Shown here one piece after another: positions 2,908 through 60,870 of a stretch of DNA of 64,000 bases. Origin of the DNA: Liolophura sinensis (lineage: Eukaryota; Mollusca; Polyplacophora; Chitonida; Chitonidae). The notes under the pieces were generated by a model. The model was not told the origin of the DNA. It searched no databases and was given only the letters and a program-made list of their open reading frames with translations. Every line of letters begins with the position of its first letter. The stretch's first letter is position 1. The stretch spans positions 56,494,512 to 56,558,511 of the forward strand of contig NC_088301.1 of the NCBI RefSeq assembly GCF_032854445.1, in the 5' to 3' direction. The translations under genes and the position numbers were made by a program.

Positions 2908-5900
2908 CTATACACTGTCCGCACCAATGAGAGCTACATTGACTCTGCGAGTGAAAAGATTTGTCTTCCTTTCATTCCAGATATAAATCATGAGTTGCAG
3001 AAAGAAGCAGAAATGTGACTGGCTGAGGTGTGTTCCTGTGTATTTTATGCACTGGAGAAAAGAATTAAACTGTTCACATATCTCTGTATTTGCCCCTTGC
3101 AATGTCGTTATGCGAGATGATCTGTAATTGTTTCCACACCTGTGAGAAAATCCATGAAACAGATCATGCCAGAACCGTGTTCCTCGCCAAAATGAGGGCT
3201 CCCTGTTGAGGGAGAATTCTGACAGAGAGCAGGCAAAGTCATAGAAAACCTCCTTTGGTGGCTCCTCAAGATAACAGAAGGCTGAGGAAAAGGGATCTTT
3301 ACGTCCTTCAGGTCCAGATATTATGTGGAATCCAAAACAGTGGCCATGAATCGGACAAAACCACAGGAACAAGTGGGACCAGCCTCCCAAGGACACCTTG
3401 GTATAGCGCTTCTCACACTTCTGTTCATCCGATGGAGATTCGTCATAGTTTTGCTTCATGCCAATGGTGTAGGATGGCAGCTGTCGTACACGATTTCCAT
3501 GTGTACTGAAATAATACGCCACTCCATCTTCAGGATTGTAAGTATTTGGTGTTGGTGTTGCAGGGCAGTACTGTACATCAGTAGAATGGATCTGTTCAAC
3601 AAAATCTACAAGATATGTTACAAAGGAACATATATCTTGAGTTCTATTAACCATGATGGCAGCATGCATGACTTTGTGTAGCTCTGGGGCAAAACATTTC
3701 AACACGCTGATGTCTTTGTCCCCTGATGTGACACTTTGGGCAATTTGTCTGATGATGTCCAAGTATCTGTATGGTACAACAGTTGAAACTGGTGCATCTT
3801 TGGAAAGCATAAGCAGAAACTCAGATAGAGCTTGTTTCAACTGGGTGTCGAATGTTCCAGCTGTAAACTGTGTTAGTAAAGAGACACATCTTGGATCAGA
3901 AGGACAGACGGAAAGGAGTGTTGCAGTTTTGATGGATTCAGTGCAGTTGTTTTCAACATTCCCTGATGAAAGTCTGGACAGATATTTGAGACATATCCAA
4001 GAGAGATGCTTTCTGGCACCTCGCACATCCTGGGGAGTAACTCCTTCCTTGTATGGCAAAAATACCCTGTCATAACGTCTGTGCTTTGTTACTACTGTTT
4101 CATCACTGGTGGGCTTGTGAATTGGTTGGATGTTCAGCCTTCTCAAACTTATGCCTATATGTGTACCATCACACGCCAGGACTTTGGGATTTGGACAGCA
4201 CCAGGGATCAACATGCTGGCGAAAATCAATTTTCATCCTTGCAGCCCATGAGAAAAACCATGAGACAAATGTCGATTTGCTCATGAAACTAGCAGAATTT
4301 GGGTGTGATGATCTGTATATGCGAGTGGCTTCCTTGCAGAAACTGGTGAATGACATTCGACATGAAAGGACCTTATTGCAGAAGTCCCATCCAATTTCAT
4401 CCCCAGCACATGTCTCCTTGGTCCAGAAATGGATGGTATCTTGTTCACCACTGTACCTCAAGGTGCAGGGAATGCTACCAAGGCACAACCTTTTGTACAC
4501 TAGGCAGCGCACAGGGGCCTACAAAAGAAATATATATGTAAACTTCAATTTAAGTTAATAAGCATTAGTATTAATTTGAAGCAGAACCTGGGAAGGTCTT
4601 GCAGAAACCTGCAGATGGTCATGGGTTTCCCCCGGGCTCAGCCTGGTTTCCTCCCACCATAATGCTGGCCGCCGTTGTATTAGTGAAATATTCTTGAGTA
4701 CAAGTAAAAACATCAATCAAATGAAATAAAATAATTTGAAGTAATAACAAAAGGTGGCATTACATAATTCAGGCAAAAAAATTATTGAGACAAGCATATT
4801 TATTTATTTATTTATTTGATTGGTGTTTTACGCCGTACTCAAGAATATTTCACTTATACAACGGCGGCCAACATTATAGTGGGTGGAAACCAGGCAGAGC
4901 CCGGGGGAAACCCACGACCATCCGCAGGTTGCTTAAGGACTTTCCCACGTACGACCTTCCCACAGCAACCGCATTGGTGAGAGACTCCTGGGTCATTACG
5001 GTGCGCTAGCGCGCTAACCAACTGAGCCACGGAGGCCCCAAGACAAACATAACATTGGTGAGTGATAAAGAAATAGTGTGAAAAACCTGTCTAGCTTTAA
5101 TAACAATAGTTTTGAAACTGTTTGAGTATATAGGGGGCAACATGTTTTGGTCGGATATGTGTAACAAGTGGCATGGTTATGTCTGCTGTTTTGGGATATG
5201 GGTAGTGTTTTTTAACGATAATGGACTATGGTGGTTAGAATCTGCCTTTTAGTGCCCTTGTACAGGTTGTGAGTTACAAGAGAATGGTACACAAAGACAG
5301 TAATATTGGGATGAATAAGATGAGTAGGTGAAGACAGTGTTTATGCTGCATGTATATTTTTGTGATGCTTTATAAAATAAGTGTGTAGTGAAGCAGTAGA
5401 TTTTTGTATGGAATGTATGAATACTCACATGTCTTGTGTATAGTGTGGTAGTGAAGTCCAGTAATGGGTGATGCCCCAGGGGATGTTCAGCATCAGTGAA
5501 GTTGGCCTGTGCACAAACAAAACACACACATTATACCACACACGTTATACCAACACCAAGCATTACAAGACAATACTATTAAAATGAGATGCTTTCAAGT
5601 TGGTTTGGCTCCTGGTAGGGGAGAGATAAAATAAGGGTGTGATTTTAATGAGACATAATTATATTACAAGGTATGTTATTAGCAGTTGACCAAATGATTC
5701 AGTCAAGACCACAAACCCTAAACGACGTAGTAAAATAAATTCCCACTACAGCTGTGCAAGGACTGATGATGTTGCACTTGTACAGCATAATTTTATAGGG
5801 CCTTAATTAATAAAGTTTATTGTGATAATTAAATTTCACATTAAATGTTGTGCAATTTTTTAAAGTGTGTACATCTTTAAATTAAAATTATTTCAGCTAT

Positions 5901-6982: not shown

Positions 6983-9900
6983 GGATGACATTGAGCTCAT
7001 GCTGAGCACACTTTCCGAGTAGCATGACGCCCTGTCATTTTCAAAAGTTGGCTATAAACCACAGTTTTATAGACACACATATCTGATATTGAAGAAGTAT
7101 TAGTTTAAGACATTATATACACGTTATGTTTGTTGTTAACCTACTGTGGTTACCTTTGTTTGCAGATTGATGTCGCAATCTTCCAAGTTGGCATTGTCTG
7201 TGAGTTGTTCCTGGTTGCCCACAGTTTCCTCACTGCTTTGCTCCTCACTCCCAACATCAACGGTACCACCTTGCATCCAAAGGTCTTTGTGGGCCACCAT
7301 TGCATCAATGTGTGGGCAAAGGGATGCTGCTTCATCTAGGAGAAGAAGACGACTGGTTGACCGCCTGTGCTTCAGGTCTGTTCCCAGGCACTCACCATGT
7401 TGACAGGACATCATTGATGCGTCAGCTGACATATGTACAAAGGAACAGAATATAGGGTCTGTGCGACTTTTTACTGAGAATTTGTTGACCCCAGCAGTGC
7501 GACTCATTAGTACCACCCCTTGGTTGATGGATTCTGTTGCCTTCCGCATGATCCTCAAGAATGGCCCACTGACTGCCTCCCCATGAAGAATTATATTCAT
7601 GTTAGGCACAACATCCTTCATAACAAGTCTACAATGCATGCAGGTCATGTCTTCTGAAAGGATATCTCCTGGGTTGGGGTTTGTACTCAACGACAGAATG
7701 ACATTGTATGTAGTGCAAGTACATTTGTAAAGTACATCATTTCCTTCTTTGAGACAGGTAACATGTACAAAGGACTGAGGGAGAAATTCCCCATTATCCG
7801 CAGAATAATCATTCATGGCAATCACGTCAGTACATTGATCATGGTGCCGCCAGTGGATGTTGCCGACTTCAATTATCTGATTTCTAAAATGCTGGAAGAC
7901 AGTTATGTCATGAAGTGTCATGTTAACACAGTCTGGTATCGTGCCTTGGGCTGCCTGCAGACTTTCAGGTGTGACTTTAACCACCCTTGGGCGATATCTT
8001 CGGGTTGAGTGACATGCGTGACTCTGACCTCCGAAGTCTTGAGATGGATGTGTATCTTCTTTAGGGGAATATATGCATGACAGGAGCCGCTGTATGTCCT
8101 CCCGGTAACCTTCAGGGTTTACAACTTTAAAAAAGATGTAACGATTACGTGGAGAAGAAGGAAGTCTTTCCACATGTTCCTTCCCAGTGACACTCTGTTG
8201 GAAGCCTATTTGTTGTGCAAACCCAACCCGTGTGGTGGCCGTGCGTAATTTGTTGCTCCCAACGGCTGGTGTGCTGCACCAGTGGTAGTTTGGAATGGAA
8301 GATAAAACATCAAATTGTTGGGTGATGCTCAGGGATGGTTCCAGTTGGGGCCAGTGCTCCATCATCCACGGGTTGTAAGGATACTGTGCTTCTCCCTGGA
8401 CACGAAAATCAGCTAGATGCTCCTCAATTTGTCTCTGAATGTCTGATGGAAGACCCCAAGAATGTGTGAACCTAAAAGAATGAATGGTTTTGTATTAAAA
8501 TTGAAGGAGAAGCTTTATAAAGCCTTTAATTTTATGAACTTTGTAAACTAATGGGAGTTTATGATTTTGGAGATGCTTAGTTAAATGGTTTTGATAATAT
8601 TAGAATTTTTTTTACAAAGGATTTGGTGTGCTTGTGCTCATAAAGCAATGACAAACAACAAATAACAGTCAATGGGAAAATAATAATACCTGTCATCTGA
8701 TTTTGTAGATGAGGGATTTTTTCTCACAACACACAGGAACAGTACTGGCAGGAACTCCTTGCCAGTAGCTCCTAAAATTTGCAGCTCCTTCTTGACATTT
8801 TGCAAAAGCCTGCCATATTTTTCCCCAGATCGGTTATACTTCCTTTTCTTGATAACTACAAAGAAATATCATTGTAATGAAGTTGACACATTGGGAAAAC
8901 GTGTGTGTTCTTGTTTCATTTATAAAGGAAATATGAATGCATATAGGCCTGAGCGGTTTAAGTGTGTCTGTATGTTTGTACAGAGACCCAGGTGGTCTAA
9001 AGTAGGTGGGTTGTAGTGTGTTTATTATACAGGCCCGGGTTGGCTATGGAAGGTGTGATGTAGTGTGTTTATTGTACAGACCAGGGTGGGCTATGGAAGG
9101 TGGGTTATAGTGTGTTTATTATACAGACCTGGGTGGGTTGTGGAAGGTGTGATGTAGTGTGTTTATTGTACAGACCTGGGTGGGCTGTGGAAGGTGTGAT
9201 GTAGTGTGTTTATTGTACAGACCTGGGTGGGCTGTGGAAGGTGTGATGTTGTGTGTTTATTGTACTGAGACCTGGATGGGCTGTGGAAGGTGGGTTTGTA
9301 GATTGTTTATTATGCAGACCTGGGTTGGCTGTGGAAGGTGTGATGTAGTGTGTTTATTGTACAGACCAGGGTGGGCCATGGAAGGTGGGTTGTAGTGTGT
9401 TTGTTATACAGACCTGGGTGGGCTGTGGAAGGTGTGATATAGTGTGTTTATTATACACAGCTGGGTGGGCTGTGGAAGGTGTGATGTAGTGTGTTTATTG
9501 TACACATCTGGATGGGCTGTAGAAGGTGGGTTTGTAGAGTGTTAATTTTACAGACCTGGGTGGGCTATGGAAGGTGGGTTGTAGTGTGTTTGTTATACAG
9601 ACCTGGGTGGGCTGTGGAAGGTGTGATATAGTGTGTTTATTGTACTGAGACCTGGGTGGGCTATAGAAGGTCGGTTGTAGAGTGTTTACTATAGAAACCT
9701 GGGTGGGCTGTGGAAGTTGGGCTGTAGAGTGTTTATTATACACACCTGGGTGGGCTGTGGAACGTGTGATGTAGTGTGTTTATTGTACAGACCAGGGTGG
9801 GCCATGGAAGGTGGGTTGTAGTGTGTTTGTTATACAGACCTGGGTGGGCTGTGGGAGGTGTGATATAGTGTGTTTATTGTACACACCTGGATGGGCTGTA

Positions 9901-12376
9901 GAAGGTGGGTTTGTAGAGTGTTAATTTTATAGACCTACGTGGGCTATGGAAGGTGGGTTGTAGTGTGTTTATTATACAGACTTGGGTGGGCTGTGGAAGG
10001 TGTGATGTAGTGTGTTTATTATACAGACCAGGGTGGGATATGGAAGGTGGGGTGTAGTGTGTTTGTTATACAGACCTGGGTGGGCTGTGGAAGGTGTGAT
10101 ATAGTGTGTTTATTGTACTGAGACCTGGGTGGGCTATAGAAGGTCGGTTGTAGAGTGTTTACTATAGAAACCTGGGTGGGCTGTGGAAGTTGGGCTGTAG
10201 AGTGTTTATTATACACACCTGGGTGGGCTGTGGAACGTGTGATGTAGTGTGTTTATTGTACTGAGACCCTGGTGGGCTATGGAAGGTCCGTTTGTACAGT
10301 GTTTATTATACAGATCTTGGTGGGCTGTGGAAGGTGGGTTGTAGAATGTTTATTATACACACCCGGGTGGGCTGTGGAAGGTGGGTTGTACTGAGACCTG
10401 GGTGGGCCATAGAAGGTGGCTTGTAGTGTATTTATTAATCAGACCTGGGTGGGGTGTGGAAGGTGTGTTTGTAGAATGTTCATTTTACAGACCAGGGTGG
10501 GCTATGGAAGGTAGCTTGTAGTGTGTTTATTATACAGACCTGGGTGGGCTGTGGAAGGTGTGATGTTTATTGTACACACCTGGATGGGCTGTAGAAGGTG
10601 GGTTTGTAGAGTGTTAATTTTACAGACCTGGGTGGGATATGGAAGGTGGGTTGTAGTGTGTTTGTTATACAGACCTGGGTGGGCTGTGGAAGGTGTGATA
10701 TAGTGTGTTTATTGTACTGAGACCTGGGTGGGCTATAGAAGGTCGGTTGTAGAGTGTTTACTATAGAAACCTGGGTGGGCTGTGGAAGTTGGGCTGTAGA
10801 GTGTTTATTATACACACCTGGGTGGGCTGTGGAACGTGTGATGTAGTGTGTTTATTGTACTGAGACCCTGGTGGGCTATGGAAGGTCCGTTTGTACAGTG
10901 TTTATTATACAGATCTTGGTGGGCTGTGGAAGGTGGGTTGTAGAATGTTTATTATACACACCCGGGTGGGCTGTGGAAGGTGGGTTGTACTGAGACCTGG
11001 GTGGGCCATAGAAGGTGGCTTGTAGTGTATTTATTAATCAGACCTGGGTGGGGTGTGGAAGGTGGGTTTGTAGAATGTTCATTTTACAGACCAGGGTGGG
11101 CTATGGAAGGAGGCTTGTAGTGTGTTTATTATACAGACCTGGGTGGGCTGTGGAAGGTGTGATGTAGTGTGTTTATTGTACACACCTGGATGGGCTGTAG
11201 AAGGTGGGTTTGTAGAGTGTTAATTTTACAGACCTGGGTGGGCTATGGAAGGTGGGTTGTAGTGTGTTTATTATACAGACTTGGGTTGGCTGTGGAAGGT
11301 GTGATGTAGTGTGTTTATTATACAGACCAGGGTGGGATATGGAAGGTGGGGTGTAGTGTGTTTATTATACAGGCCTGGGTGGTCTGTGGAAGGTGGGTTG
11401 TTGTGTGTTTATTATATAGACCTGGGTGGGCTGTTAAAGGTGGATTGGAGTGTGTGTAGAGTGTACACTGTTGAATGGGATATGGAAGTAGGTGTGGAGA
11501 GTGGCCTGGGTGGGCTATAGAGTGTGCATTGTGCAAAAATTTGGATGAGCTATAAAAGGGCTTTTGTAATGTACAGGTACGTAGAGAGACTTGGGTGGGC
11601 TATGGAAGGTGGGTTTAATATAAAATATGTGTTGACTGTACAGAGACCTGGTGGGATTTGAAAGTGTGTGCATTGTGCAGAGAGAATATTGATGTGAGTA
11701 GACGGTGTGTAATATTGGACCATGATATTTTGAGAAAAAAAATATACAAAATGGGAATGAAACAAAACACTATATGTATTGCCCGGAGACTTGGCCGAGT
11801 TATGACAGCTATAGGCCTACTATGTTGTTTGTATTGGACTGGTATAGGCATGGGCTATTGCAATATATGTGTTACATATATTGTACTTCTGTTAAAAAAA
11901 GACTGTTTTTTTCTTTTTTGTCTTGAAATATTTTGTAAATGACAGTAAATATGAATACCTGGTGAACTGTCATTTTCCACTACAGGTAGTTTCTTATAAT
12001 GTGTGGCTCTCTTCTGAATAAACTGTCGTCGTTGCGCGATATCAGGTGTGGTGTATACTCTGTATGCTGGTGTGTTGTTATTTGCCATCAACGATCGACC
12101 ACATTTATGAAGGTAGCCAACAAAGCTACCCCCTTCAAAAAACCTGATGATACTCGATTGTTGGACTTTTAATCCCATCGCAAGAAATATGCCCTGTGTG
12201 ACATCTGGATGGCATGCCATATCCAGTAGATGATTTTCCATAGACAGGAGAGCTGTGTTTTGAGAAGAAAACACGCCAGATTGCTCCAGCATCTTCTCAG
12301 CCTTCCACTCAAGCTCAATGGCTCCATCAATTTGATCAAGTTGTTTGGGGTAAACAGTTTCTACAAAATAGAACAT
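2908..12376 (-). CDS. SWIM-like/CxC cysteine-cluster protein with KDZ-type DDE nuclease fold (HMGXB3-like)
   Basis: Seven minus-strand exons join with matching phases: 11959-12360, 8690-8855, 7154-8471, 6443-6534, 6155-6278, 5429-5506 and 2908-4518 (stop TAG). The joined frame is about 1,263 codons. The 7154-8471 exon holds a SWIM-like CxC...CxH cluster (YKCTCTTY, then TCMHC). The exon 6155-6278 ends RCQCG. The last exon (537 codons) has the pattern of KDZ (Kyakuja-Dileera-Zisupton) transposases and of the related C-terminal part of vertebrate HMGXB3: DGTH (Asp about 117 of that exon), YDFAC (about 427), HDLFHG...H.C, and NTEICEQ (Glu about 479). All three expected acidic residues are therefore present. 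The role is unknown: it may be a domesticated nuclear DNA-binding protein or an intron-containing transposon. The 5' end is uncertain. The first exon may start at an in-frame ATG at 12376, or be spliced at an acceptor after 12360; a likely upstream exon is listed separately. Confidence 0.72.
4585..4735 (+). mobile_element. SINE family A, 5'-truncated copy
   Basis: This is the tail half of the main SINE family in the window. It starts near GGGAAGGTCTTGCAG, passes through TTTCCTCCCACCATAATGCT and GAAATATTCTTGAGTAC, and ends in an A/T-rich tail. It lies in the intron just upstream of the last exon of the KDZ-like gene. The tRNA-like head is missing. Confidence 0.75.
4799..5040 (-). mobile_element. 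SINE family A, full-length, with 11-bp target-site duplication
   Basis: Read on the minus strand, the element begins GGGGCCTCCGTGGCTCAGTT, which is tRNA-like with an A box. It carries the conserved body and ends in a (AAAT)n tail at 4799-4815. It is flanked by AGACAAGCATA (4788-4798) and AGACAAACATA (5041-5051), an 11-bp duplication with one mismatch. That shows a retroposition event and fixes both ends. It lies inside an intron of the KDZ-like gene. Confidence 0.9.
6583..6779 (-). mobile_element. SINE family A, internally deleted copy
   Basis: The conserved tail (ATTTATTTGATTGGTGCTTT) and the tRNA-like head (GCGCACTAACCAAATGAGCC) are both present, but the middle is shorter than in the copy at 4799-5040. 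A (TA)n tract follows directly at 6781-6814. It lies in the intron between the KDZ-like exons 6443-6534 and 7154-8471. Confidence 0.8.
6781..6977. repeat. Two (TA)n microsatellites
   Basis: Pure TA runs occupy about 6781-6814 and 6933-6977. The DNA between them contains A-rich repeats (AAACAAAACAAAA-like). They sit in an intron and have no evident function. Confidence 0.85.
8990..11660. repeat. 47-bp intronic minisatellite, about 55 copies with higher-order repeats
   Basis: A tandem array whose unit is about 47 bp contains CAGACCTGGGTGGGCTGTGG followed by AAGGTGTGATGTAGTGTGTT and TATTGTA. The spacing measured between 9124 and 9171 is 47 bp. Two alternating variants (GTGTGATGTAG and GTGGGTTGTAG) are mixed. 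Longer blocks are themselves duplicated: the variant TGTACTGAGACCTGGGTGGG followed by CTATAGAAGG occurs near 9641, 10114 and 10713. The G-rich strand is the plus strand. The array fills the intron between the KDZ-like exons 11959-12360 and 8690-8855. Short open frames on either strand here are by-products of the repeat. Confidence 0.92.
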
Positions 12377-13875: not shown

Positions 13876-14892
13876 CATTGATATTTTCCATTTTTATGAA
13901 GAAAGATGATTGAATGCTACTAGTATGTGTTGTCCACGGATATGAAGAGTACCTGATAAAGTATATATGTACCTGGAATGTAAGGATACAGCAATTATAT
14001 TTATGCTTTACGGGCGAACCAACAATAAAAGTTGAAAATGGATAAAAATGAACTTGATAACTTGAAAAACCATTTTATTTTGTGAATTTCCTGTTTTTGA
14101 AGGTTTTTGGATAACAAATATGTCTTAAACAGGAACAATTACTGGGACATTCCACAAGTGACACAAACTGGATGATTTTTGAGTTTTATTTTTGCACTAT
14201 ATTAAAAAATTAGAAAAAAAGATTCTGCCCGTAAAAAAAAATATTAATTGGTGTGACCTTAAGACCTTACGTACTTAATGCAAAGCTTAACAGTGTTGCA
14301 CTACAATGGTATAATGTGATTTCGAAACACCACACTTAAATAACAGAGTATGATAACCCAAAACAGAATCCTTATTAAAACATAGAAACACTTCATGATA
14401 TATGTGAATGATATAGGTATTGTACATCTGGATACGGCTCAGAGACCTTCAAGTTACCAAACGTTTTGGCTTGGAAATACTTAAGTGCTCCAAAGATGTA
14501 CAGGAGAGACAAATAGCAGAAATAGATAAATGTTGTACTTCTAATCTGATAATATAAAAAAATACCAGTAAGTTAATGACAATGCAACCTGATAAAGAAC
14601 TGAGTAATAATTTGTTCACTTGCATGGGGTTATTGTCTGTTTAAACATTAATACCATGGCACATACTGTGTGTGATGGTCAATTTCGAAATGAGCAATAT
14701 AATAGCCCCATGTGGTGATGCACTATGAAGGAAAAAGTTGGATTGCTTTGGATGCCTGTGGTCTTTTACAGATTGCAGCTTTATCCATATGCAGAATGCT
14801 CACAATGTGGTCTACTAATGCCATAAGCTAAGACGACAAAATTGAACATTATATATAAAACACAAAGTATTATTTTAAATAAAATGACAAAC

Positions 14893-14898
14893 TTTATT
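14893..14898 (-). terminator. Polyadenylation signal AATAAA for the small four-exon gene
   Basis: TTTATT on the plus strand is AATAAA on the minus strand. It lies about 100 bp beyond the predicted stop codon at 15000-15002, a natural distance for a short 3' UTR. Confidence 0.5.
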
Positions 14899-14999
14899 CG
14901 AACGAAGTGATGATTTACAAGAAAAGCCGATGGAATGTTAGGTCACAAATGGTGAAAATATAAAATCAAGTGTGAAAGTGTCTATAAAAGATGGCTGGA

Positions 15000-17900
15000 T
15001 TAGTTGCAGATGATGGATTTATGTCCGTGGTCACCCCAAAATGTTGTCTTCTGTTGTATTCGGGGAAGAATAGAGAGGATCTGAAAACAAGAACAAATGC
15101 TGTTTTAAAGAATAATACCCAAGCAGAATATGTTGCATGAACACATTGTCTAAAGCCATCTGCCATTGGGCTGATGTGAATAGACACATAACGTGGCTAG
15201 TGTGTGCACTACATAATAACAACTAGCTCTGGAGGAATGCACTTAACTGAAGCCAATGAGGCAATTATCAGCACTGATCCAGAAGTTGAAGTGTCAGTTG
15301 TGTGGAACATAATCTGCTTTTAGGATTTGCACGTGTTGTTGAATTTAACAGAGTGTTTCTAATTTATAGTTTGTTTATGCTATAAAGAATTTTTGACCCA
15401 TACAATGGTCATGAGTATTATAGCTTGATGAAACCAGAGTGTCCATTGAAAACCACAATTTATTTGATTGACGTTTTATACCATGATGAAGAATATTTCA
15501 CTTATATGATACCATTATAGTGGAAGAAAATGAAACCAAAACGACCATCTGCAAGTTGTTATCAGACCTTGCCACCTATGACCGCATAGGACATGAACTG
15601 AGCACGACTGCATTGGTGACAGGCGAATAGTTTTGAATACAGGCAGCTGACTAGGGCACTAGTGAATACTTCACTTATTCAACAGTGGCAAGCATTATGT
15701 TGGAAACCGGTGAAAGTACATGGGAATATAGTACACAAATATAAGCCAATAATTTGATGAGGTTTTGATGAAACAGACACACAGATGAACAAACTGTTTT
15801 ATGGACCAAACATATGCACCAATTTTGTTCTTTGACAGTGTGATCCTCTACAAACTATAACACTGATAACTGCTGTGGTTTTACTGTCTATCCTGTAAAT
15901 GTATTGGCAACCATTACACTTTATACTTTATGGCTTGCAATAATGGGTTATATGCTAAACTGTAACAGATTAAAGCACTTTCATAGCAAGAATGACATTT
16001 GGAAGTACCGGAGGTGGGAGAACTTATTTACATAACTCACTCACTTGTGTTTTACGAAAGGTGAATGTCAGGACTTGGCTTACATCATGGTTGACAAGAT
16101 TCTTGAAGATGCCTTTGAATGAATCTGTAGTATAATAAAGCTGAAGGTAAGAAAACTATGTACAACAATTTTTTTCTGCAAATGGTATAATATTATGTTG
16201 TGCATATATGTATAACATATCAGAAATGACATAACTTCAAGTGAAAAGATTGCTTTGGTGTATTTATGTATTTGCTAGCTTGATTACACATATTTTGTAA
16301 AAGTGTTGCCTACATGACTTACGTACATTATACGAAAGGAGGGCATGCTGCAAATGGCTGTACCTTGAATAATATTGAATGTGTTACCGTTACAAAAAGA
16401 TAATTACATGCACTGTTAACCACATATGTTGAAAGGATTTTATTTCAATTAATCCTTTCTGTGTGAGAACTGAAAGTAAACAAAAGATCTATTATTACTA
16501 ATTAAATGATATACCTGCAGGTAGACAGTGCATGTACATGTAGCAACAAGCAGCATAAAATCGTGAGGAGGAAACCAGAGCAGAGGGGCAATCTAACAAG
16601 ATGGATTACTAATACTGGTACAGTTTCTTAGATCTACATATACACATGTAACCAAATTGACCCCATTTTATGACTGATAAGAAGATCCATGATGAAGTTT
16701 CACTGATGGAGAGGCAAATATGATGAACAGTGAAACAATGATATAACATATGAAAGTGACTTTATTTGATTTTGGTTTGAAACAACACTGAGGGGCATAT
16801 GTATAAAAAACCTGGAAGGTTGTGATGCCAAACTATTAAGGTCATATTTTATGAAATGCAACTAAAATTGATGCTTCTGGGAGTTTTGAAGTGTATGAAT
16901 GAAAGAAATTGGTATGAAAACAAAATCTTATTATTGGTAAACTGTGATAATTTTGCTCAGTATGGTGTTAGCTAGATTAGTTTGGGTGTGCAACAGCTTT
17001 GGAGACCAACTGTTTTGTGGAAATTAAATGGCTCTACATATGGCCCTGATACTGCATAATATTTGATTATTTTTGCATTTGACTGAAGCCCTTCTATGCC
17101 CAGGGGAAAAAAAATATAGGCCTTTGGCAAACAGCTGATGAGCTTTGCCACATGCAACACACAGGTCTTAACTGACATATCATCTTTCTTTAAGCCCACC
17201 AGCCAGAAACGTCCGATATCCACAGAGAAAGAGGTGAGCTTTTAGGTGGACTGAGAAGTTCTTTGTTGTCCTGTTGTGGACTGGCTTTCCCGGACTGCCT
17301 GTGGTATTAGTAAACGCTTGATGATAATCAAACGCCTAACCAAATCAGTTGTTGTCCTCGCATAGCTATCTAGGCTTTAAGCCAAGCGAACGCTGAATCA
17401 TCGGGGCGATGAGGTCACAATATTTGTCACTGAAACTCTGACTTCATCAAAGCTAAAGCCAGGTATAGCGCATGAAAAATAAATTTGTCTCAGTCAGCCA
17501 GTTCTGAGTTGTAGCATGAGCACTTGTGTTCTATTACTGATTCTTGGAGGTAAGGCGTGTGCTGATTGGTGTTGTGGGTATTGCAATGTCTGCACTACAG
17601 GTTAATTGTTGTAATCATCAACGTAATCGTCTTTTCAGAACACAACACCAAAGAAACTCAAAGCAACCAATGACAAGGCTGATCAAGTGAACGTGAGTCT
17701 GTCTCCGGAACAGAAACAGAGGATTGAGGAAAACCGCCGAAAAGCTTTGGAGAAACTTTCGTCCAAGTCCAGTGATGGAGTCTTGTCGGACCAACCTGGT
17801 ATAAGGCATTGGCCCCTGAATTCAGTAAACCATACTTTATACAAGTAAAAGCACTCAAAAAGTGTGTACCAAATGCAGGGGTTCATAGAAGTAATTTTTC

Positions 17901-20900
17901 CAATAGGAGTAATGCAACACGCAAGTCTTAACTGACAGAGCTTGACAATTACATTCTATGTTGTGTGAATGTTACTTCCGAAACCAACTTCTTTGATAAC
18001 GACCACACAAGTATGGTCGATGGCTTGTCGTCATGCTCCAGGAGCCACAAAAATTAAGAGTGGAAAATATACAATTGCCCTCCAAAGTGGGGTGGTAATA
18101 TGTACCTTGTGTATACTAGCAACTGAGAGGATCACCTTAACCACTGGGCCACAGCCCGCTATCTATAATACACTGGTTTTGAAACTAACCTCAGATGCCA
18201 ACAGTGGTGTTGACCAGTTATTGCAGTTTTGAGTGCAATTGGGAAGTGCCTTTTTTTGCAAAACTAGTAGCACATACGGACACTGTAGCACACCTGTTGA
18301 CTGTGGCCATGATTACATATTGCTATGTGTTTTACAATGATTTGCAACATCATAACGAAGAACATAACAGATACTGTAACAGGAATTTCTTACTGATTAT
18401 AACACAAGCCAATGATGATGGTTCGGCGATACCTTTAAGGTTGAAATGGTAAAATATGTGGCTGTTAATAAACTTGTAAGATGACGTGTACTTACCAAAG
18501 CTGCTGCATAAAAGGTGAAAGGATTGGCCTACCCCATGGTTGACAAGAATGCTGGGGCTAAGTTCCTTCAAGTAAACCTAAAATTTAAAAAAAAAAAGTA
18601 CATGTAAATTATGCTTTTTTTCTCTGAACAGGTGCCACATGTATGATAAAAGAAAACTCAAGTGATGTTATAAGAGATTTGTATTTAACATGAACTACAT
18701 GTTAGTTAATAAATGTGATGACAATGAAGTATGCAACAGATAGAGGAAAATTACCAAGCCTCTGCTTGTATAACAATGGGCAAACTATGGATATGTTACA
18801 AGAGAGATTTTAATGAAGTACATCTATGAGCAACACAAACAGTATGAAGTTTACAGAAAAAGTGTAATGGTGTAAGAATGCAATAAAAACAAATGAACAA
18901 TTATATGTTATGTTAAACTTATAATTGGTATCAAGGCTACCAAAGAGCTCGCCTGTATGAGACACATGAAGGCAAAACTTCAGCTCAAATGATGAATTTG
19001 GTAATTAATATGCTCACAGAGATTTATATGCATGTAAAACTTAAGGTCAATACATGGCATACTTTTTAGATACCAACCCTAACACTTTGTATAACAGTGA
19101 TTCTAATACACAATACACTAAATCAGGAATTCAGTAATTTACGGTATTAAATATGCACACACCCAACCAATGATGGAATATTCCCCAATTGATATTGTGC
19201 CCTGCATGTGTGCAAACCCGCAGCTCAACACATGCAGTAGTTTTTGAGAAACCACTCCTAATACTCTGTTTAACATTGATCCTAAACATAATACACTCAG
19301 TCAGGAATTCAGCAACTTACAATAGTTAATATGAACACATCCAATCAATGATGGAATATCCCCCTCTTTCTATTGTGCTCTTCAAGGGTGTAAACCCTGA
19401 GCTCAATACCTACAAGATACCAACCCCTAACATTTTAACATTTTTTTCTCAATTATTGGATGCAGATGCCGATGCCCAGGGTATGACATAAGGTACAAAG
19501 TTTAACCATAGAGGCTGCTGATAACAGAAGCTGCAATACATGGCCATAATGATGCCAGAACAACAAAAACCATTTTAGGAGAAAAAAAAATAACACAAAT
19601 GCAACATGTAAAGGATATACATGTATGCACAAGCCACAAATAAGTGAACATAAAAACAAAATATGTTTAGAAGGTGCAAATTTGTATGATTTTAAGTCAT
19701 GGGACTGCAATAATACACAAATACTAACAGAACTAGGGAAAAGAACTGAAGCAGTATGTTGATTAGAACCTGCATTGCTAATGCATGACAAGTTTATAAC
19801 CATATAAAGGCCTGGTTAATTGAACTGTTTTGGGAACAATTTAGTTGCTGTACAAAGAGAATTGAGCTTAGCACAGATTTTCTGGACATAGCTTATGAAA
19901 ATTAATGTGCACAAAAGAGATACGGGGGTAAAATAGACATACATTTTATATAAAGCAATGAACACATTATGGGTTAACATTTTTGTTATTATTTTGAGTT
20001 TTACGCATATATATTTTTGAGACAGTGTGAAGCTAGGCTTAAAGCATAATATAAACATGCAATCGGGGATTGTTACAGGAGCTTAATGCATGCAAAATTT
20101 AAACAAGGGAACAGGTGCATGCTAAAAATGCATGTTGTTGGCATATTGTATAAATGATTAATTTATTTTATTTATTTCATTGGTGTTTTATCCTGTACTC
20201 AAGAACATTTCATTTCTTCAGCATTTTGAGTAAAGCATATAAAGTAAAAGGCATGAGGAAAACCAACAAACACAAAATACTTGTGCAAGAAACACTATGG
20301 AACATTACTTACATATTGTAGATAGAATAGTCAGGTGAAGACAGAGTGAAGGACAGCAGTGACAGGTTTTGTTATGCTCAGATGAAAAACGAAGTCATGC
20401 AGCGGATGGAGCGTTCAAGCAGTTGAACCTTGGAATACTAGGGGATTATTCTTTTTTTGCTAACCATTCACAAAAAAAAACACTTAGAGGTTTTACACAA
20501 ATTAATTTTTGAGACAGTGTGAAGCCGGGATTAAAGCATAATATAAAACATGCGTTAGGGGAATGTTACAGGAGATTAATGCATGCAACGGTTAAACAAG
20601 GGAACAAGTGCAAGCTAAAAAAAACTGCTAATCATTTTTTGCATAAATGATTATTTTATTATTTTATTGGTGTTTGCCCGTACTCAAGAACATTTCACTT
20701 CTACAGCAGTGTGGTGGGAGGAAACCGGGCAAAGTGAGGGGGTAACCCACAACCATGCGCAAGTTGCTGGAAGACGTTGCCACGTACAGCCGGAGAGGAA
20801 GTCAGCATAATCTACACTTGAACTTGGTGAGAGGATCCTGGGTCATAGGGTAGCACTGGCTAGCTTACCCCTCGGCCACGGAGGCCAATCTTGACTTAAT

Positions 20901-21567
20901 GGTATTGACTAAAGGATATGTGACATATGTAATGCCTTTAGGTTTGATGGGTTGCATAAACAGCAATGTAACATGCATGTAAAAAAGTACTGCTGAGCGG
21001 GTATATTGAAATTTGAAACATAGTTCATAAATGGCAGGTGATGCCAGTAGGTGATGTACACGTAGAAGTCTGGGTGCAGCGCATCCTTCCAAGACGTAGT
21101 ATATCACTAAACTGACATACATCGGTCGCAGAAATGGACAGACGTTACAATCAGCCACGTCATACAGCAGGCTTACTGCGGACAACAAGTATGTTGAGGA
21201 TAGCACACTAAGAACCAAGGAGCGCGGGGGAAGTAAATGCTTACATATATTTCCGCATAAACATAGCCACATAGTGCTACCACCAACCTCACGTCTGTAA
21301 CTGCTAAGTTAGACTTATTAAATACTGAGGATGAGTACATGTGATCCACTGACAATGCTAAAATAGAGCACAACAACAACTTTGAAAGTATCCACTGTTG
21401 TAACTAGCCTACATTGTACACTGCTGAACTGAAATGGCACAGAATGGCAAGCATAATTCACAGACTGGCGAGCACAAATTCTATTAATTATGACGTGAAT
21501 AAATTATTACTTAAGAAATAGTAAAAATAAGTGAACTTACATCAGTGGTTGTACCAACACGTGCCAT
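15000..21567 (-). CDS. Unrecognised small four-exon gene, predicted 89 aa
   Basis: I do not recognise this protein. Exons on the minus strand are 21541-21567 (from the ATG), 18496-18577, 16045-16124 and 15000-15080 (stop TAA). Each junction has a consensus donor (GAT/GTAAGT, TTTG/GTAAGT, CACAA/GTGAGT) and an acceptor (TTTTAG, CTACAG, TTTCAG). The phases match across all three introns, and the total is 270 bp, or 89 codons plus stop. The first exon's frame is open upstream of the ATG without another Met, so translation should begin MARVGTTTD. Exon 2 contains ILVNHGVGQSF and exon 3 contains NLVNHDVSQVLTF; these look like diverged copies and are also similar at DNA level. There is no signal peptide or clear membrane segment. 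The gene is divergent from NOMO (about 350 bp ATG to ATG) and so may share its promoter. It could instead be a spliced non-coding RNA: the same first exon also holds an 80-codon open frame (21542-21784) that closes at the donor. Confidence 0.5.
15455..15665 (-). mobile_element. SINE family A, old degenerate copy
   Basis: ATTTATTTGATTGACGTTTT followed by GAAGAATATTTCACTTATAT marks the tail. The body is recognisable but has many substitutions and deletions. A second partial tail match follows at about 15665-15710 (ACTTCACTTATTCAACAGTG). Confidence 0.6.
17639..17798 (+). CDS. Orphan exon with RPA32-binding-like helix
   Basis: A pyrimidine-rich tract and TTTTCAG precede AACACAACACCAAAG, the frame stays open for 53 codons, and CAACCTG is followed by the donor GTATAAG. 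The peptide contains LSPEQKQRIEENRRKALEKL, a charged amphipathic helix. That pattern (basic residues around RIxxNRxxAL) is known from the RPA32-binding motifs at the N-termini of DNA-repair proteins such as SMARCAL1, XPA, UNG2 and TIPIN. I infer an N-terminal exon of one of these, or a relic of it. I could not find a flanking exon in a compatible phase or any catalytic domain nearby, so the gene may be broken, may have exons I missed, or may be a transposed fragment. It sits in an intron of the minus-strand small gene. Confidence 0.4.
17985..18165 (-). mobile_element. Possible tRNA-derived SINE copy
   Basis: Read on the minus strand, AGCGGGCTGTGGCCCAGTGG TTAAGG looks like a tRNA-type 5' end with an A box. 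The downstream B box is poor. The open frame covering it on the plus strand has no recognisable motif. Confidence 0.35.
18940..19445. repeat. Degenerate ~178-bp tandem repeat, about three units
   Basis: The blocks GGAATTCAGTAATTTACGGT (19126) and GGAATTCAGCAACTTACAAT (19304) are 178 bp apart and are followed by near-identical ATGATGGAATAT segments. CTCAATACMTRCA and CTAATACTCTGT blocks repeat in step. A related copy is seen at 13020-13260. It lies in an intron of the small minus-strand gene. Confidence 0.65.
19990..20730. repeat. Local tandem duplication of about 250 bp, 492 bp apart
   Basis: The sequence from GAGACAGTGTGAAG (20019) through TTAATGCATGCAAAATTTAA and AAATGATTAATTTATTTTAT is repeated from 20511 with modest divergence. 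The duplicated block runs into a SINE family A tail in both copies. The SINE was therefore either copied with the block or mediated the duplication. Confidence 0.65.
20158..20225 (-). mobile_element. SINE family A tail fragment
   Basis: The fragment reads TTTATTTCATTGGTGTTTTA then GTACTCAAGAACATTTCATT. Only the tail is present. It is part of the left copy of the local duplication. Confidence 0.6.
20645..20886 (-). mobile_element. SINE family A, near full-length
   Basis: The tail (TTATTGGTGTTTGCCCGTAC), the body (GTGGGAGGAAACCGGGCAAA) and the tRNA-like end (CCTCGGCCACGGAGGCC) are all present. It lies in intron 1 of the small minus-strand gene. Confidence 0.8.
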
Positions 21568-21917
21568 TGGGCCGAAGTTGCATGTGCCACTGACAGATCC
21601 GAGTGCCTGAGTAAGAACTACTGTGATTGGACGAAATAGCCAGGTTTGTAAGATACAATCTGATTGAGTCCAACAATTTGCGGTCAAGCCATGGTGTGAT
21701 GGACGTCCGTTCTCCTGGTGGATTTACTTCCGGTCCCCTCTTGGATGTACTCGTTTTGAATAGAGAAAGGTGCGAGACGCACATTTGACTTCACGACATG
21801 TCAACACGACATGCATGGTACGATTTTCGGCAAGCACATTTCGCCGGTTGTTTCACCTGGCGTATTTTCTGTGAGCAGTGTGTGATTTAATTCACACATC
21901 ACACTTAAATCAAAAGT
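21568..21917. promoter_or_regulatory. Divergent promoter region between the small gene and NOMO
   Basis: The start codons of the 89-aa gene (21567, minus) and NOMO (21918, plus) are about 350 bp apart. The interval contains both transcript starts if both genes are expressed. It is locally richer in CpG than its surroundings (around 21700-21860). I see no convincing TATA box. Shared control is an inference from spacing. Confidence 0.5.
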
Positions 21918-24900
21918 ATGCAATTTACAGAACTGTTGACAAGCTTTCTGTTAGTCTTCAGTTCTTTATCAGTTCGAGTTTTGGCAGATGGCCTTCTTGG
22001 GTGTGGTGGATTTGTCAAGTCGGATGTGGGTATTAATTTTTCGTTGGTAGAAGTGAAGCTGTACACAACCCATGGCAGCATCAAATATCAGACAGATTGT
22101 GCCCCAAACAGCGGCTACTACCTTATACCTCTCTACGACAAAGGCGACTTCATCCTGAAAGTTGAGCCTCCTCATGGTTGGAGTTTTGGTAAGGATAGAA
22201 ACAAAATCTATAATGAGATTAATGCATTAGGATTATCGATCCTGTCTTTTGGGATGCTAGATATAGGCCTATGGGACATTGTTTTGCCTTTTGGAAAACT
22301 ACAACGATCATGTCAAAGGAAATCGAAGTAATAGAGCATAGAATAATTATTCTCATTAGGCATATCACACATTACTCTTTGTTTCTCATCACCAGAACCC
22401 CGTCCCGCATATCTTTTTTCTTGTAGACTGATGTTTCCTGACAAAAAAAATGTTTGACAAAAACTCTGTCAAAATACATATGTCAAATAAGCAACATTCA
22501 AATTTCAGGATCTGAGCCATTACACTTGCACATGCACATTCAACCTTTACCATGTTCATCTGTGTTGAACACGTCCAAAAAAAAAACTCAATCTATCACA
22601 ACAGCTCAAGTGGTCTAATGGTATAAGCATCCAGCTACGAACCCAACACTCTTTCTGTTGGAAGATCAAATTCAGAACTGTTCAGAACAAAGGATGAGAC
22701 GACTTTCTGAAGTAAGAAGTAAGAACTGACAGAGACAGAGACAGATGTCACATGATAGAGACTGGAGTGAGGAAATTCTTACTTATGGTGTTTTTTTTTT
22801 TTTTTTATATATGTAACTTGAGCATCTCCACATTCAGTTTTAACCAATGAAAAAATTATGTCAGAAGACACATGGAAATCAACATGTAAATAGCAACAGT
22901 GTCCTCACAAATCCCAGAAGAAGTGTTGAAGATCTTGTTCCAGTTCGTCAAAATGTTGGTCAGAATAGATTTACCAGGCAAAAAGCTAACCGTAGAATAG
23001 GAGAAATGAAAAGCATGAAGATAATTTAGCATCAGCAATTTTGTTGCTGAACTCTTAATCATCCTGCTGTAGGTATAGTTCTAGTCAGAAAATTTTACTC
23101 CATTGCTCCTAATTTCATTGTTTTGCCAGAAATTGTCACCAAAGGTGAACGTATCATGAAATAATGATAATGGAACTGTTTCTCTGCCCACACAAATTTT
23201 GCAACGTATTTAGACGAGAAACATCGGTATGCTATCAGCAGATACAGCACTGTAGCTTTATTTAGTATTTCAGGAGTCTCATGAGTTCATGCTGGTTTAG
23301 GCGAAAGAAGGTGGGGCTCTTGCAAATTAGCGCATCTGAAAGATGTGACCTAAGGTATAGTTATCCACCACTGATTATTGTCTGCACCAGGTATGGTGAG
23401 GTATGGAGATTTGTCAGGCACATGGTAAGTGATGGGAGTTTTCCTCGTGCCTTGAACTTGACAGCTGTTGCACAAATTAGATATTCTTGAGAAAGGCATT
23501 CAGTCCTAATCTGGTAAATGAACTAGTTATTTGCTAACTAAAGTGTTCATATATCATGTTTTCGTGTACTTCAGAACCTGCCAGCATAGAACTGCATGTT
23601 GATGGGGCCAATGACAAGTGCAGCAAAGGTGAAGATATCAATTTCGTTTTCACTGGATTCTCCGTTTTTGGAAAGGTAACATGTTTGCTATTAACTTCAA
23701 TTTGACTTCTTTATAGTATGAGCTTACTGCTGTTAAAAAGAATATACTACATATTGTAAGGGAAAATTTGCACTCAGTGGAACAAATTTTGACCTCACAG
23801 AAAAATACCAATCTTATCAATGTATATTGTATAGTGATAGAATGGTAAAAAAAAAGTATGTAAAAGTCATGTGTCGCTTTAGTTTAAGATTCCTTTGTAA
23901 TTTAGCTGATGAGGTCTGCTGTCTGTGAACACAAAATTCATTCCTCTAATGGTGCTTCAGCTCTTGTTCAGTAGTCTCTGCGGGGCTGAGTGTATATGTG
24001 GGCATTAATTCCATTCTAGCAGCTGCATGTGTAAGCTACTCCTATTGTAAACTTTCTATCTCAGTGGACGCCAGTGGGCTTGTGCGCTGATCTACAGGTT
24101 TACAGGTTTTTCCCTGTCTCACGCGACGTTGGGAAGGATGAATGGATGCCGATATTTCCACCAATAGTTCCTTTATTGATAGCTGGCAGTTGGTTCGCAC
24201 CGGGAATGCTCAATGTACCTGCAAACTCTCGCCTAGGATAGATGGCAGCTCTCTCTCTCTCTTTCTCTCTACCCAGACTCTTTCACAAGGCGGCTTATAT
24301 TTATCCCCTCCCCGCTAAGATAGGAATTCTATCTAAATGAACTTTCCCGGTGTGGCCAATCTCAACTTCTAACCAAAACAAATTACATTGTTTTCGATAC
24401 GTGTACTACCAATCCATTGCCCCCAAGCCATCCACCAAGAACAGGCCAGTTCTTAATGTGAACTAGTTCGGGGTGCATACATCATTGTTTGACTTTGGGC
24501 AGGCAGCCCAAGCATGAGTGGCATTTCCAGAATCGACAACAAACAATGCACTGAGCTTTTGTATATTTGTATATTTACAAACATAGTGAGGCATGCACCT
24601 AACGTCATGCAGCTATAACAACCACAATACTATTACAGAGAGAACATACAAGATTGCAATGACACGTAATCCACGTATTTTACAATATGTCTTCACCTCA
24701 AAAAAAATGGCCATTGAAAAACTGTTAATCGTCTTAATCAGTGTAATTTGGTGCGAATATACACAGAAATCTGTACATGTCGTTGACCACTATTCCATGG
24801 CATGACCTCTTTCAGGGAAAGTAAATCTTAGAAATATTTGCATGATAATAATGACAGCTTACCTTTTGTGTTAGTTACAGGCTTGGGAACTTTTTTCCAA

Positions 24901-36700: not shown

Positions 36701-39700
36701 AGTAATGTTTATTTTTCCTGAACAACTGAATCTCCTCAGACTTAAACTAATGAACTGTAAGAGAAAGTCATCAGAAGAGGAACTCAAACATTCCTCTTGG
36801 CAGGTAGGTCAAATGTCATCACAGGAGGTCAAACGTTAGTGTGAAAATCAGATACCAGCAGAACATTTAGCTATTTGTAATTAATTCAAAAACATGTGTT
36901 ACTTAAGCTATAAAAAAAACTTCCCCTCTACTAACAATAGCATGCAATCAGTGTAAAATACATCATGAATTTAAAATAAAAAAGGTTTCAAGTATGTAAA
37001 TTAGTACCTGTTAGCCCCATTACCATGGAGAAAAAGGCGAGTGACTTCATTGGGATCTTGTGGGGCTAAATCTTCCAAGATGAGCACAAACAAGCTACTG
37101 TCAATTAACTGCACTGGAATCTCATTACCTGTCCATCAGAAAATTGAGAAGAGTTAATTCCTGCACTTTTTATTTCGTGGTGTCTTAAATGTAATAGACT
37201 GGAATACACTGACTACTTACAACCATCTCTCTATAAATTAAATTGGAATTTTGCATCATTCAAGGTGCACATGCATGGGATGACGGTCCAATAGGCCTTG
37301 TTGGTTCAATTGGGGTATAACAAATGTGAACAAATTTTGCCGCTACTGAACATAAAAGAAAAAGAAGAAGAAAACAAGCAGTTCTAACATTAGGATGTGA
37401 GAAAGCAGAGTACATGCAGTGCTGTACATGCAAACATAGGAGGTCAACAGTGTAGAGCCCCATCTTGTAATAGAAAGATTGTGAATCCTCACCAGCATTG
37501 ATCAGTTGTTGTCGCACAGCTGCCCACTTGTCCCTGTTCTCTGTGGTCATAACCCCGACTGGAAACTCAGGTGAGGCACAAGTGTCAGACAAAATGTACT
37601 TCAGGTGGGCCTGGATTACATCAGGGGACAGGATGTTACCTGTGACAGATGAAGTTGCAATTTGTATGCATAGATAAATGGGGGTAAATAAAATGAAGAG
37701 AAGCCTGTTCACATACATGTACACGTGGCAAAGATATGAGAAATTTATTAGTTCCATGAAAAAAATAAACAACAGTATTACCATATCATATCAGTAAGCC
37801 ATGTAATTCAAGCTGTATCACTTCCATTACTAAAAATGTACATATTTTGAGACTTTCATGTACTAGTGAAGAACAACATGTTCTGTTTTTAAATGTATGA
37901 TGTGCATACCAGATACATGTAGGCAATGTTTCTTCAATAGGACAGGAAAGTATTCAGATATACCGGTTCTGGTAATTCTTATAATAGGGAATACACTGTT
38001 AAGCGACTGTTGATAAAGCTTACCATCTCCATCAAAGACATCAAATATGTAGAAGTTTCCATTCCTTAGTACCAGCAGGTGCTTGCCTGTAGGGTCAGAG
38101 ACAAGTTCATCTCTACCCTTCCTGTGAATTTGGAAATACAAAATACTACTGAATGAGAAATAATAAGGGATCAAAGAACTTAATCTTGTAACATTAAACA
38201 ATCCATTTTATTCCTTGGATATGTCACAGTTTACCAACTAAAAATAAGGTAAATTACCTTGGAATGCGTGTGGAGTTGAAAAGTCTGTCATACTGGCTCA
38301 TATCCAGGGGGAAAGCTTTGTACAGATATGCCCCATACCATGCAAGGGCAGCTGGTAACCATCTGAAGACAAACAAATACTAGCACGAGATGGTTTTAAA
38401 CTACCATGGCAATAAACCATTCAAAGACATACTAATAACAGTCTATAGCAAGCTTACTGTTCTCTCCAAACCACCACAGACAATGTTTGCTGTCACCTAA
38501 GAAGTGTGTATTTTCCCAAAACTCTCTGTACATAATCGCATCACTGCCGCTGTCAGGAATTCATTGAGGGATACAGGCCAGCAGTACCCTCAGGTGACAT
38601 AAAAAAGCTGATAAGTCAGTCAATTTCAATCAACTGAGTCAATATTGTGCTGCAAAATGTTTCACTGACCTGTCTTCTGACGGCCAATAAATCACACAAA
38701 CTTGGCTACTAAGTTTCCGGGATGGCAAAACAATGTCACCATTTTTCTGGAGCCAGAAACGAACAAAGGTGATTCAGTTTAAAACTCTCTCATAAAAGTA
38801 GTTTCATGGATAAAAGCAGTATGACATCTTGCCCTTTGTATAAAACACCTCCATTCTGGCAATCAACTCTTACCCCATGTTGTATCTCATAATGCATTAG
38901 GCACAGATGATGACATCTTTATACAATCAATCCTTTATCTTCTGTGAATGTTAATATAATCTATACAGATTCTAGCACATAATTCTGGAAGAGACACATA
39001 ATCTCACCTGACAACTTTTCTAAAACTTTGTGTATCACTTTTTGTTGGATTCAGATGATATACCTCTGGCTCCAAAAGATTAGCCCGATACGTCTTCAAA
39101 TATCGCAACGATGATACCACCATATTTGTTGCACGTGTCAACTGAAAACAAAATTTTGAAATCCACATATATATCAGAAATCCATGATATAAAGAGAGCT
39201 TTGGACCAATTCACTTTCAGAGACAAGGTTCAATACTGCACAATGGTGGAGCTTGAAATTCCTACTGCATGATGGCAGAGCCTGACACAACTATAATACA
39301 GTGGCAGAGCCTGACACAACTACTGTGCAATGTCAGAGCCTGACACAACTACTGCACAATGTCAGAGCCTGACACAACTATTGCACAATGTCAGACTGAG
39401 ACAACTACAGGAAAATGACAGAGCCTAACACAACTACTTCACAATGACAGAGTCTGAAACAACTACTGCACAATAGCAGAACTATTGCACAATGGTGGAA
39501 CCTTATTTATTTATTTGATAGGTGTTTCACACTGTACTCAAGAATATTTCACTTATATCACGGCGGCCAGCATTATGATGGAGGAAACCAGGCAGAGCCC
39601 AGGGTATGGTGGAACCTGATAATACAGATATAGCACCATGGCAGAATCAGACAAGACTGCATCACAATGACAGAGCTAGTACAACTATTGCAAAATGTTA

Positions 39701-43608: not shown

Positions 43609-60870
<17,262 letters not shown>

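Follow-up and report, generated by a model that had tools for sequence, protein, structure and literature searches.

The DNA analyzed here is a stretch of 64,000 nucleotides from the chiton Liolophura sinensis (contig NC_088301.1 of assembly GCF_032854445.1, positions 56,494,512 to 56,558,511), hereafter the window, within which all coordinates are counted. Its plus strand carries a NOMO gene, the first exon of which falls in an open frame at 21909-22331 (Pfam NOMO1-like_1st, E 9.5e-29; first ATG at 21918), and a later exon of the gene matches Pfam Ig_NOMO (E 3.7e-28). Head to head with the first NOMO exon stands exon 1 of a candidate four-exon transcript on the minus strand (Table 1), and the orientation divergent from NOMO that was noted in a first-pass annotation of this DNA is confirmed. 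That annotation took the four exons for a gene encoding an unrecognized protein of 89 amino acids (aa). In the following we argue that they may rather belong to a spliced noncoding RNA in which one exon has been duplicated. The interval between exon 1 and NOMO retains CpG dinucleotides, the observed/expected ratio being 0.90 over 21541-21916 versus 0.37 for the whole window. The CCGGAAGT within it is the only exact occurrence in the window, and we take it to be a motif of the ETS type, which bidirectional promoters often carry.

The four minus-strand exons with consensus junctions described in the first-pass annotation were all recovered. In transcript order, and with slashes at the exon borders, the junctions read ACT GAT/GTAAGT, TTTTAG/GTT...TTTG/GTAAGT, CTACAG/ATT...CAA/GTGAGT and TTTCAG/ATC...TAA, and the joined exons form an open reading frame (ORF) of 270 nt, that is 89 codons and a stop. 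The AATAAA that had been noted about 100 bp past the end is present as well, starting at 14898, approximately 100 nt beyond the proposed stop codon. The sequence thus supports a putative four-exon spliced transcript. An overlapping upstream ATG ORF of 13 codons (MQLRPNGTCWYNH) just 5' of the exon 1 ATG would also belong to this transcript, provided that transcription begins above that ORF.

Table 1. Positions in the window of the candidate transcript, the interval that separates it from NOMO, and the U6atac-like stretches opposite two of its exons.
Feature	Position	Strand	Remarks
Exon 1, portion that codes for MARVGTTTD in the proposed ORF	21541-21567	-	ATG and GTAAGT donor verified; transcript start upstream (higher coordinate)
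Exon 2, 82 nt, paralogue of exon 3	18496-18577	-	Splice sites verified
Exon 3, 80 nt, paralogue of exon 2	16045-16124	-	Splice sites verified
Exon 4, up to the proposed stop	15000-15080	-	Acceptor and TAA verified; exon would extend to the poly(A) signal
AATAAA poly(A) signal	14893-14898	-	Sole AATAAA/ATTAAA on the minus strand of 14600-15080
Head-to-head interval, exon 1 to the NOMO ATG at 21918	21568-21917	.	Contains a single CCGGAAGT at 21726-21733, minus-strand reading
U6atac-like stretch opposite exon 2 (weak)	18501-18620	+	cmscan 18.3 bits, gathering score 33
Counterpart opposite exon 3	16047-16098	+	5' end (GTGTTTTACGAAAGG) resembles U6atac nt 1-15

Several comparisons indicate that exons 2 and 3 are paralogous. 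Their local alignment score of 45 was reached in none of 2000 dinucleotide shuffles, and their global score of 144 lies far above the shuffled values (n = 2000; mean 35, standard deviation 15, maximum 96). A 24-base pattern drawn from both cores occurs, at three mismatches or fewer, only at these two places in the 64 kb, and in none of 100 shuffles. We also paired splice-bounded candidate exons with one another. The first count (212 candidates, 21,830 pairs, of which 1,198 scored at least 45) was dominated by tandem arrays, and for this reason candidates overlapping the arrays were dropped and the count was redone. Among the 8,870 non-overlapping pairs of the remaining 135 candidates, four rows scored 45 and the next scored 30; all four rows are the exon 2/exon 3 pair and its alternative-acceptor versions. 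The internal exon duplication suggested in the first-pass annotation is therefore supported by sequence, with this pair at the top of all those compared outside the arrays. No significant likeness was seen in the 60-nt intron flanks of the two exons, where 67 and 108 of 1000 shuffles were as alike.

The splice sites of the two copies agree in position. At the thresholds of the claimed sites the minus strand of the window holds 56 donors and 386 acceptors, and from these densities we estimate that a second copy would by accident have a donor no more than 3 nt, and an acceptor no more than 1 nt, away from the matching offsets about once in 10,000 cases, an estimate that should be interpreted with some caution since its thresholds are post hoc and come from the claim itself. 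We regard these matching offsets as the strongest argument for genuine exons. Mutually exclusive use of exons 2 and 3 was rejected, since exon 1 joined straight to exon 3 runs into an early stop and the two exons differ in phase. A stable hairpin in either exon was likewise ruled out (z-scores of 0.60 and 1.26 on the minus strand, 0.68 and -0.35 on the plus strand).

Related as they are, the two exons do not share one reading frame. Under five sets of alignment costs the end-to-end alignment contained 54-56 identical columns, of which 23-25 occupied the same codon position and 29-33 different ones. The frames agree solely across the middle 27-31 bases; 5' and 3' of this core they are put out of register by indels of 1, 5 (4 + 1 in some alignments), 1 and 4 bases. 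The peptide pattern LVNHxVxQ, which the first-pass annotation had found in both exons, is indeed read in the same frame at the core, but it amounts to a short in-register patch, the codon position being the same in so few of the identical columns. The 3' part, which is out of frame, is in itself alike beyond chance (11/2000 shuffles). Within the ungapped core from CTT to CAA the codons CTT, GTC, AAC, CAT, GTA and CAA are base-identical, while the three substitutions fall in two other codons and alter both amino acids, leaving synonymous sites unchanged. Selection on a duplicated protein exon should leave the reverse picture, and the pattern therefore points to constraint on, or shared ancestry of, the nucleotides and not the peptide. 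The frame that a protein-coding gene would be expected to keep between paralogous exons is not kept here. Related exons without a common reading frame argue for a spliced noncoding RNA rather than a new small protein gene, and the protein-coding interpretation of the 89-aa ORF, as put forward in the first-pass annotation, is not supported.

On balance, and by a slight preponderance of probability, we read the locus as encoding a spliced, polyadenylated long noncoding RNA (lncRNA) that diverges from the NOMO promoter region and in which exons 2 and 3 arose by duplication of a single exon of about 80 nt. In its favor are the consensus sites of all four exons, the well-placed poly(A) signal, the likeness of exons 2 and 3, the disagreement of their frames and the head-to-head layout with NOMO across the CpG-retaining interval, all of which the sequence shows; that the minus strand is transcribed, that its RNA is noncoding and what role it has, we infer. 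According to this interpretation the shared promoter region would open in both directions, and the minus-strand product would be spliced at three GT-AG introns and would end past the AATAAA at 14898. What the two copies of the duplicated exon would have kept is a motif of about 40 nucleotides, together with the splice-site positions, and no reading frame. The likeliest role would be that of an ordinary divergent promoter transcript, whose synthesis or splicing goes along with activity of the NOMO promoter; a role of the RNA itself would presumably sit in the repeated motif.

Divergent lncRNAs of animals, which arise at bidirectional promoters, lie head to head with a coding gene over a short CpG-retaining interval and have few small exons, a poly(A) signal and no recognized protein domain, all of which resembles the present candidate. 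Our candidate differs from them in that two of its exons are paralogous with a conserved core of about 40 nt, and in that it is known from DNA alone. With orphan microprotein genes it has in common a short spliced ORF that lacks known relatives, but its duplicated exons lose codon register. A literature search returned no paper that joins divergent lncRNAs of bidirectional promoters with exon duplication. As an lncRNA candidate with a duplicated exon it would be one among very many and of mild interest; two paralogous exons in one transcript do, however, show what is conserved, namely a nucleotide motif and splice sites and not codons, without recourse to a second species.

A number of results weigh against the noncoding reading, and most of them would suit an orphan gene whose 89-aa product is translated and in which LVNHxVxQ is a duplicated peptide motif. 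The ORF runs continuously through four exons and stays open across three junctions. Shuffling of the assumed 465-nt transcript gave an ORF of at least 89 codons in 152 of 2000 cases, and random four-piece transcripts, drawn from parts of the window outside known genes and arrays, contained one in just 47 of 3000. The frame is, moreover, shared across the core of exons 2 and 3. The codon log-odds of -0.07 per codon exceed the noncoding median of -0.22. In addition, the acceptor of exon 3 is weak (weight 0.84, versus 4.50 and 5.74 for the other two) by generic splice-site weights, which were taken from general knowledge and not trained on this species, and the 5' exon part by itself is weakly alike between the copies (112/2000 shuffles). 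The codon score is ambiguous: it was reached by 39 of 500 stop-free noncoding chimeras and by 5 of 58 natural noncoding open stretches, whereas eight held-out NOMO pieces gave -0.04 to 0.28, so that codon usage lies between noncoding sequence and NOMO and leans neither way. Translation of the ORF appears improbable to us in view of the register lost on both sides of the core, the core substitutions that alter both affected amino acids, and the upstream ORF that would overlap its start. The ORF product also has no relatives in Pfam, NCBIfam, PDB or two contig scans, none of which is a collection of eukaryote genomes.

The opposite possibility is that there is no gene at all. Exons 2 and 3 would then be two copies of a short dispersed repeat or of a small-RNA retrocopy that happen to lie upstream of NOMO, their splice-like borders would be accidental, and exons 1 and 4 would be chance finds. 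We counted chains of four exons and at least 85 codons in which no site was weaker than the weakest of those claimed. In the real 7-kb region the minus strand held 16 such chains, two of which scored at or above the claim (the claimed chain and a slightly better one of 95 codons), and the plus strand held 3, of which one matched or exceeded the claim. A chain of equal or better splice score appeared in 13 of 60 shuffled regions, while 43 of the 60 had no qualifying chain. A phase-matched ORF chain alone is thus not beyond chance, and the odds of one in 27 that the first-pass annotation gave for matching phases neglect the freedom in choosing exons. Consistent with insertion, an oligo(A) run at 18587-18597, such as a retrocopy would leave, is complementary to the acceptor tract of exon 2, this exon is similar to U6atac on its plus strand, and a uracil-DNA glycosylase fragment between 26-nt direct repeats suggests past insertions in this region. 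We nevertheless regard the absence of a gene as unlikely, because a donor and an acceptor at matching offsets in both copies are, by the estimate given above, improbable for unrelated insertions. Furthermore, no third copy of the exon in the 64 kb scored better than nhmmer E 1.8, and by eye there was no clear target-site duplication beside either copy.

The resemblance to U6atac, a small nuclear RNA (snRNA; Rfam RF00619) of the minor spliceosome, suggests a further origin for the duplicated exons. Exons 2 and 3 could descend from antisense copies of this snRNA, and a spliced RNA with two U6atac-complementary stretches would be able to bind U6atac or to titrate it. In cmscan the U6atac model was matched over its full length by the plus strand of exon 2, with E 0.012 for a 241-nt sequence and E 0.37 for 7.6 kb, and U6atac had the lowest E among four weak Rfam matches at E up to 5 in the region 14600-22200. 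When the 5' half of U6atac (nt 1-50 of the consensus) was compared with the 64 kb, the exon 2 place came out best (41 versus 32 for the next), and the exon 3 plus strand, with a local score of 31, came third. Shuffled U6atac attained the exon 2 score in 0/5000 trials and the exon 3 score in 7/5000; shuffled exons did so in 0/5000 and 2/5000 (Gumbel p 2e-5 and 0.001, uncorrected for the number of families). The predicted duplex with the consensus amounts to -62.5 kcal/mol for exon 2 (0/300 shuffles as good) and -41.6 kcal/mol for exon 3 (1/300), while stretches at exons 1 and 4 give no such signal (185/300 and 178/300). These modeled duplexes restate the sequence likeness and would be no independent proof. 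The AAGGAGA and CCCC..UUGACAAGGAUGG elements of the 5' half are important to U6atac, and in exon 2 they are partly kept, as AAAGGTGA, CCCC and TTGACAAGAATG, with a 4-nt insertion. On the plus strand, exon 2 tracks roughly the first 50 nt of U6atac and is followed by the oligo(A) run, whose complement is the acceptor pyrimidine tract; such an arrangement would fit a U6atac/poly(A) retrocopy. U6atac retrocopies, including structures of this kind, have been described in a human genome survey (PMC4476161).

Descent from U6atac is nonetheless very improbable in our judgment. The exon 2 match stays below the gathering score (18.3 versus 33 bits), concerns a single family among 4,227, lacks significance over the region (E 0.37), and is outscored in the same short stretch by the unrelated bacterial small-RNA family STnc40 (21.0 bits, E 0.18). 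For exon 3, cmscan gave nothing at E up to 10, its alignment to U6atac departs from that of exon 2 after the first 14 bases, and its differences from exon 2 do not lean to U6atac (1196/5000), whereas those of exon 2 do (82/5000). Two of 40 shuffled U6atac sequences attained a score of 41 somewhere in the window. Unlike U6atac and its retropseudogenes, the exons show little likeness in the 3' half, and both copies share the 4-nt insertion. No clear TATA or proximal sequence element of an RNA polymerase III promoter was seen by eye upstream of the U6atac-like stretch.

The complementarity to U6atac is kept as a lead that is suggestive only. If true, it would matter more than the lncRNA candidate alone. 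According to one report (PMC3728624), U6atac is unstable and limiting for minor-intron splicing, and an antisense RNA would for that reason be a natural regulator. A noncoding RNA divergent from NOMO, its duplicated exons being antisense U6atac copies that pair with U6atac, could then hold down a limiting snRNA of the minor spliceosome, a combination to which we give hardly any credence at present. Among the matches listed in a literature search, none was by its title on an antisense lncRNA to U6atac.

The first-pass annotation had recognized no family for the 89-aa product, and this was borne out: there were no matches in Pfam, PDB or NCBIfam, each searched at E up to 10, and none of the pattern matches was confirmed in viral_contigs (17 matches) or genome_contigs (106 matches). 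The exon core, as a DNA pattern, had no match in viral_contigs and one in genome_contigs, within a 310-aa ORF of the bacterium Sneathiella sedimenti, which we regard as chance. This lack of relatives means little, because the searched libraries include no collection of genomes of related animals. The first 28 nt of U6atac, used as an exact pattern, had no match in viral_contigs. No structured RNA in the window reached the Rfam gathering threshold, and we know of no microRNA site in the region.

Intron 2 of the candidate transcript contains an apparent, frameshifted remnant of a uracil-DNA glycosylase gene on the plus strand (17180-17844), read as LSPEQKQRIEENRRKALEKL and, in another frame, GPTWYKALAPEFSKPYFIQ. 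With a human UNG sequence as query, tblastn gave E 0.001 for the two together. The last piece had 14 matches in PDB, searched at E up to 10, and every one of them was a uracil-DNA glycosylase (best E 0.025). An upstream piece, SSFFKPTSQKRPISTEKE, we presume to come from UNG exon 1. The remnant had no match to the family in Pfam or NCBIfam, and no further UNG pieces were found in the window below E 0.63 (tblastn). On either side lie direct repeats of 26 nt (17152-17177 and 17912-17937, 92% identical), and it looks as if a genomic UNG fragment with its intron had been inserted there and a target-site duplication made.

An element on the minus strand (20660-20900, with GGCCTCCGTGGCCGAGGGGTAAGC as head and TTCTTGAGTACGGGCAAACACCAATAAAATAA as tail) resembles a short interspersed element (SINE), perhaps of the V-domain type of molluscs; a second 3' end lies at 20170-20240 on the same strand, and repeated pieces connect 19998-20228 with 20490-20713. 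Long open frames on the minus strand at 2908-4518, 7136-8494 and 11855-12376 perhaps belong to transposon-like elements, and the first of them has a sub-threshold KDZ transposase match (E 0.1; 12.8 bits versus 26.6). Large tandem arrays occupy 9004-11455 (47-bp units) and 58804-59552 (56-bp units). A further array of 114-bp units at 49431-51584 contains two repeated open frames of 113 aa, owing to a unit length that is a multiple of three. On the minus strand at 37260-38207 are likely exons of a carnitine acyltransferase gene, which we take to be CPT2; 37260-37790 matches Pfam Carn_acyltransf (E 2.9e-10) and 37863-38207 was assigned by eye.

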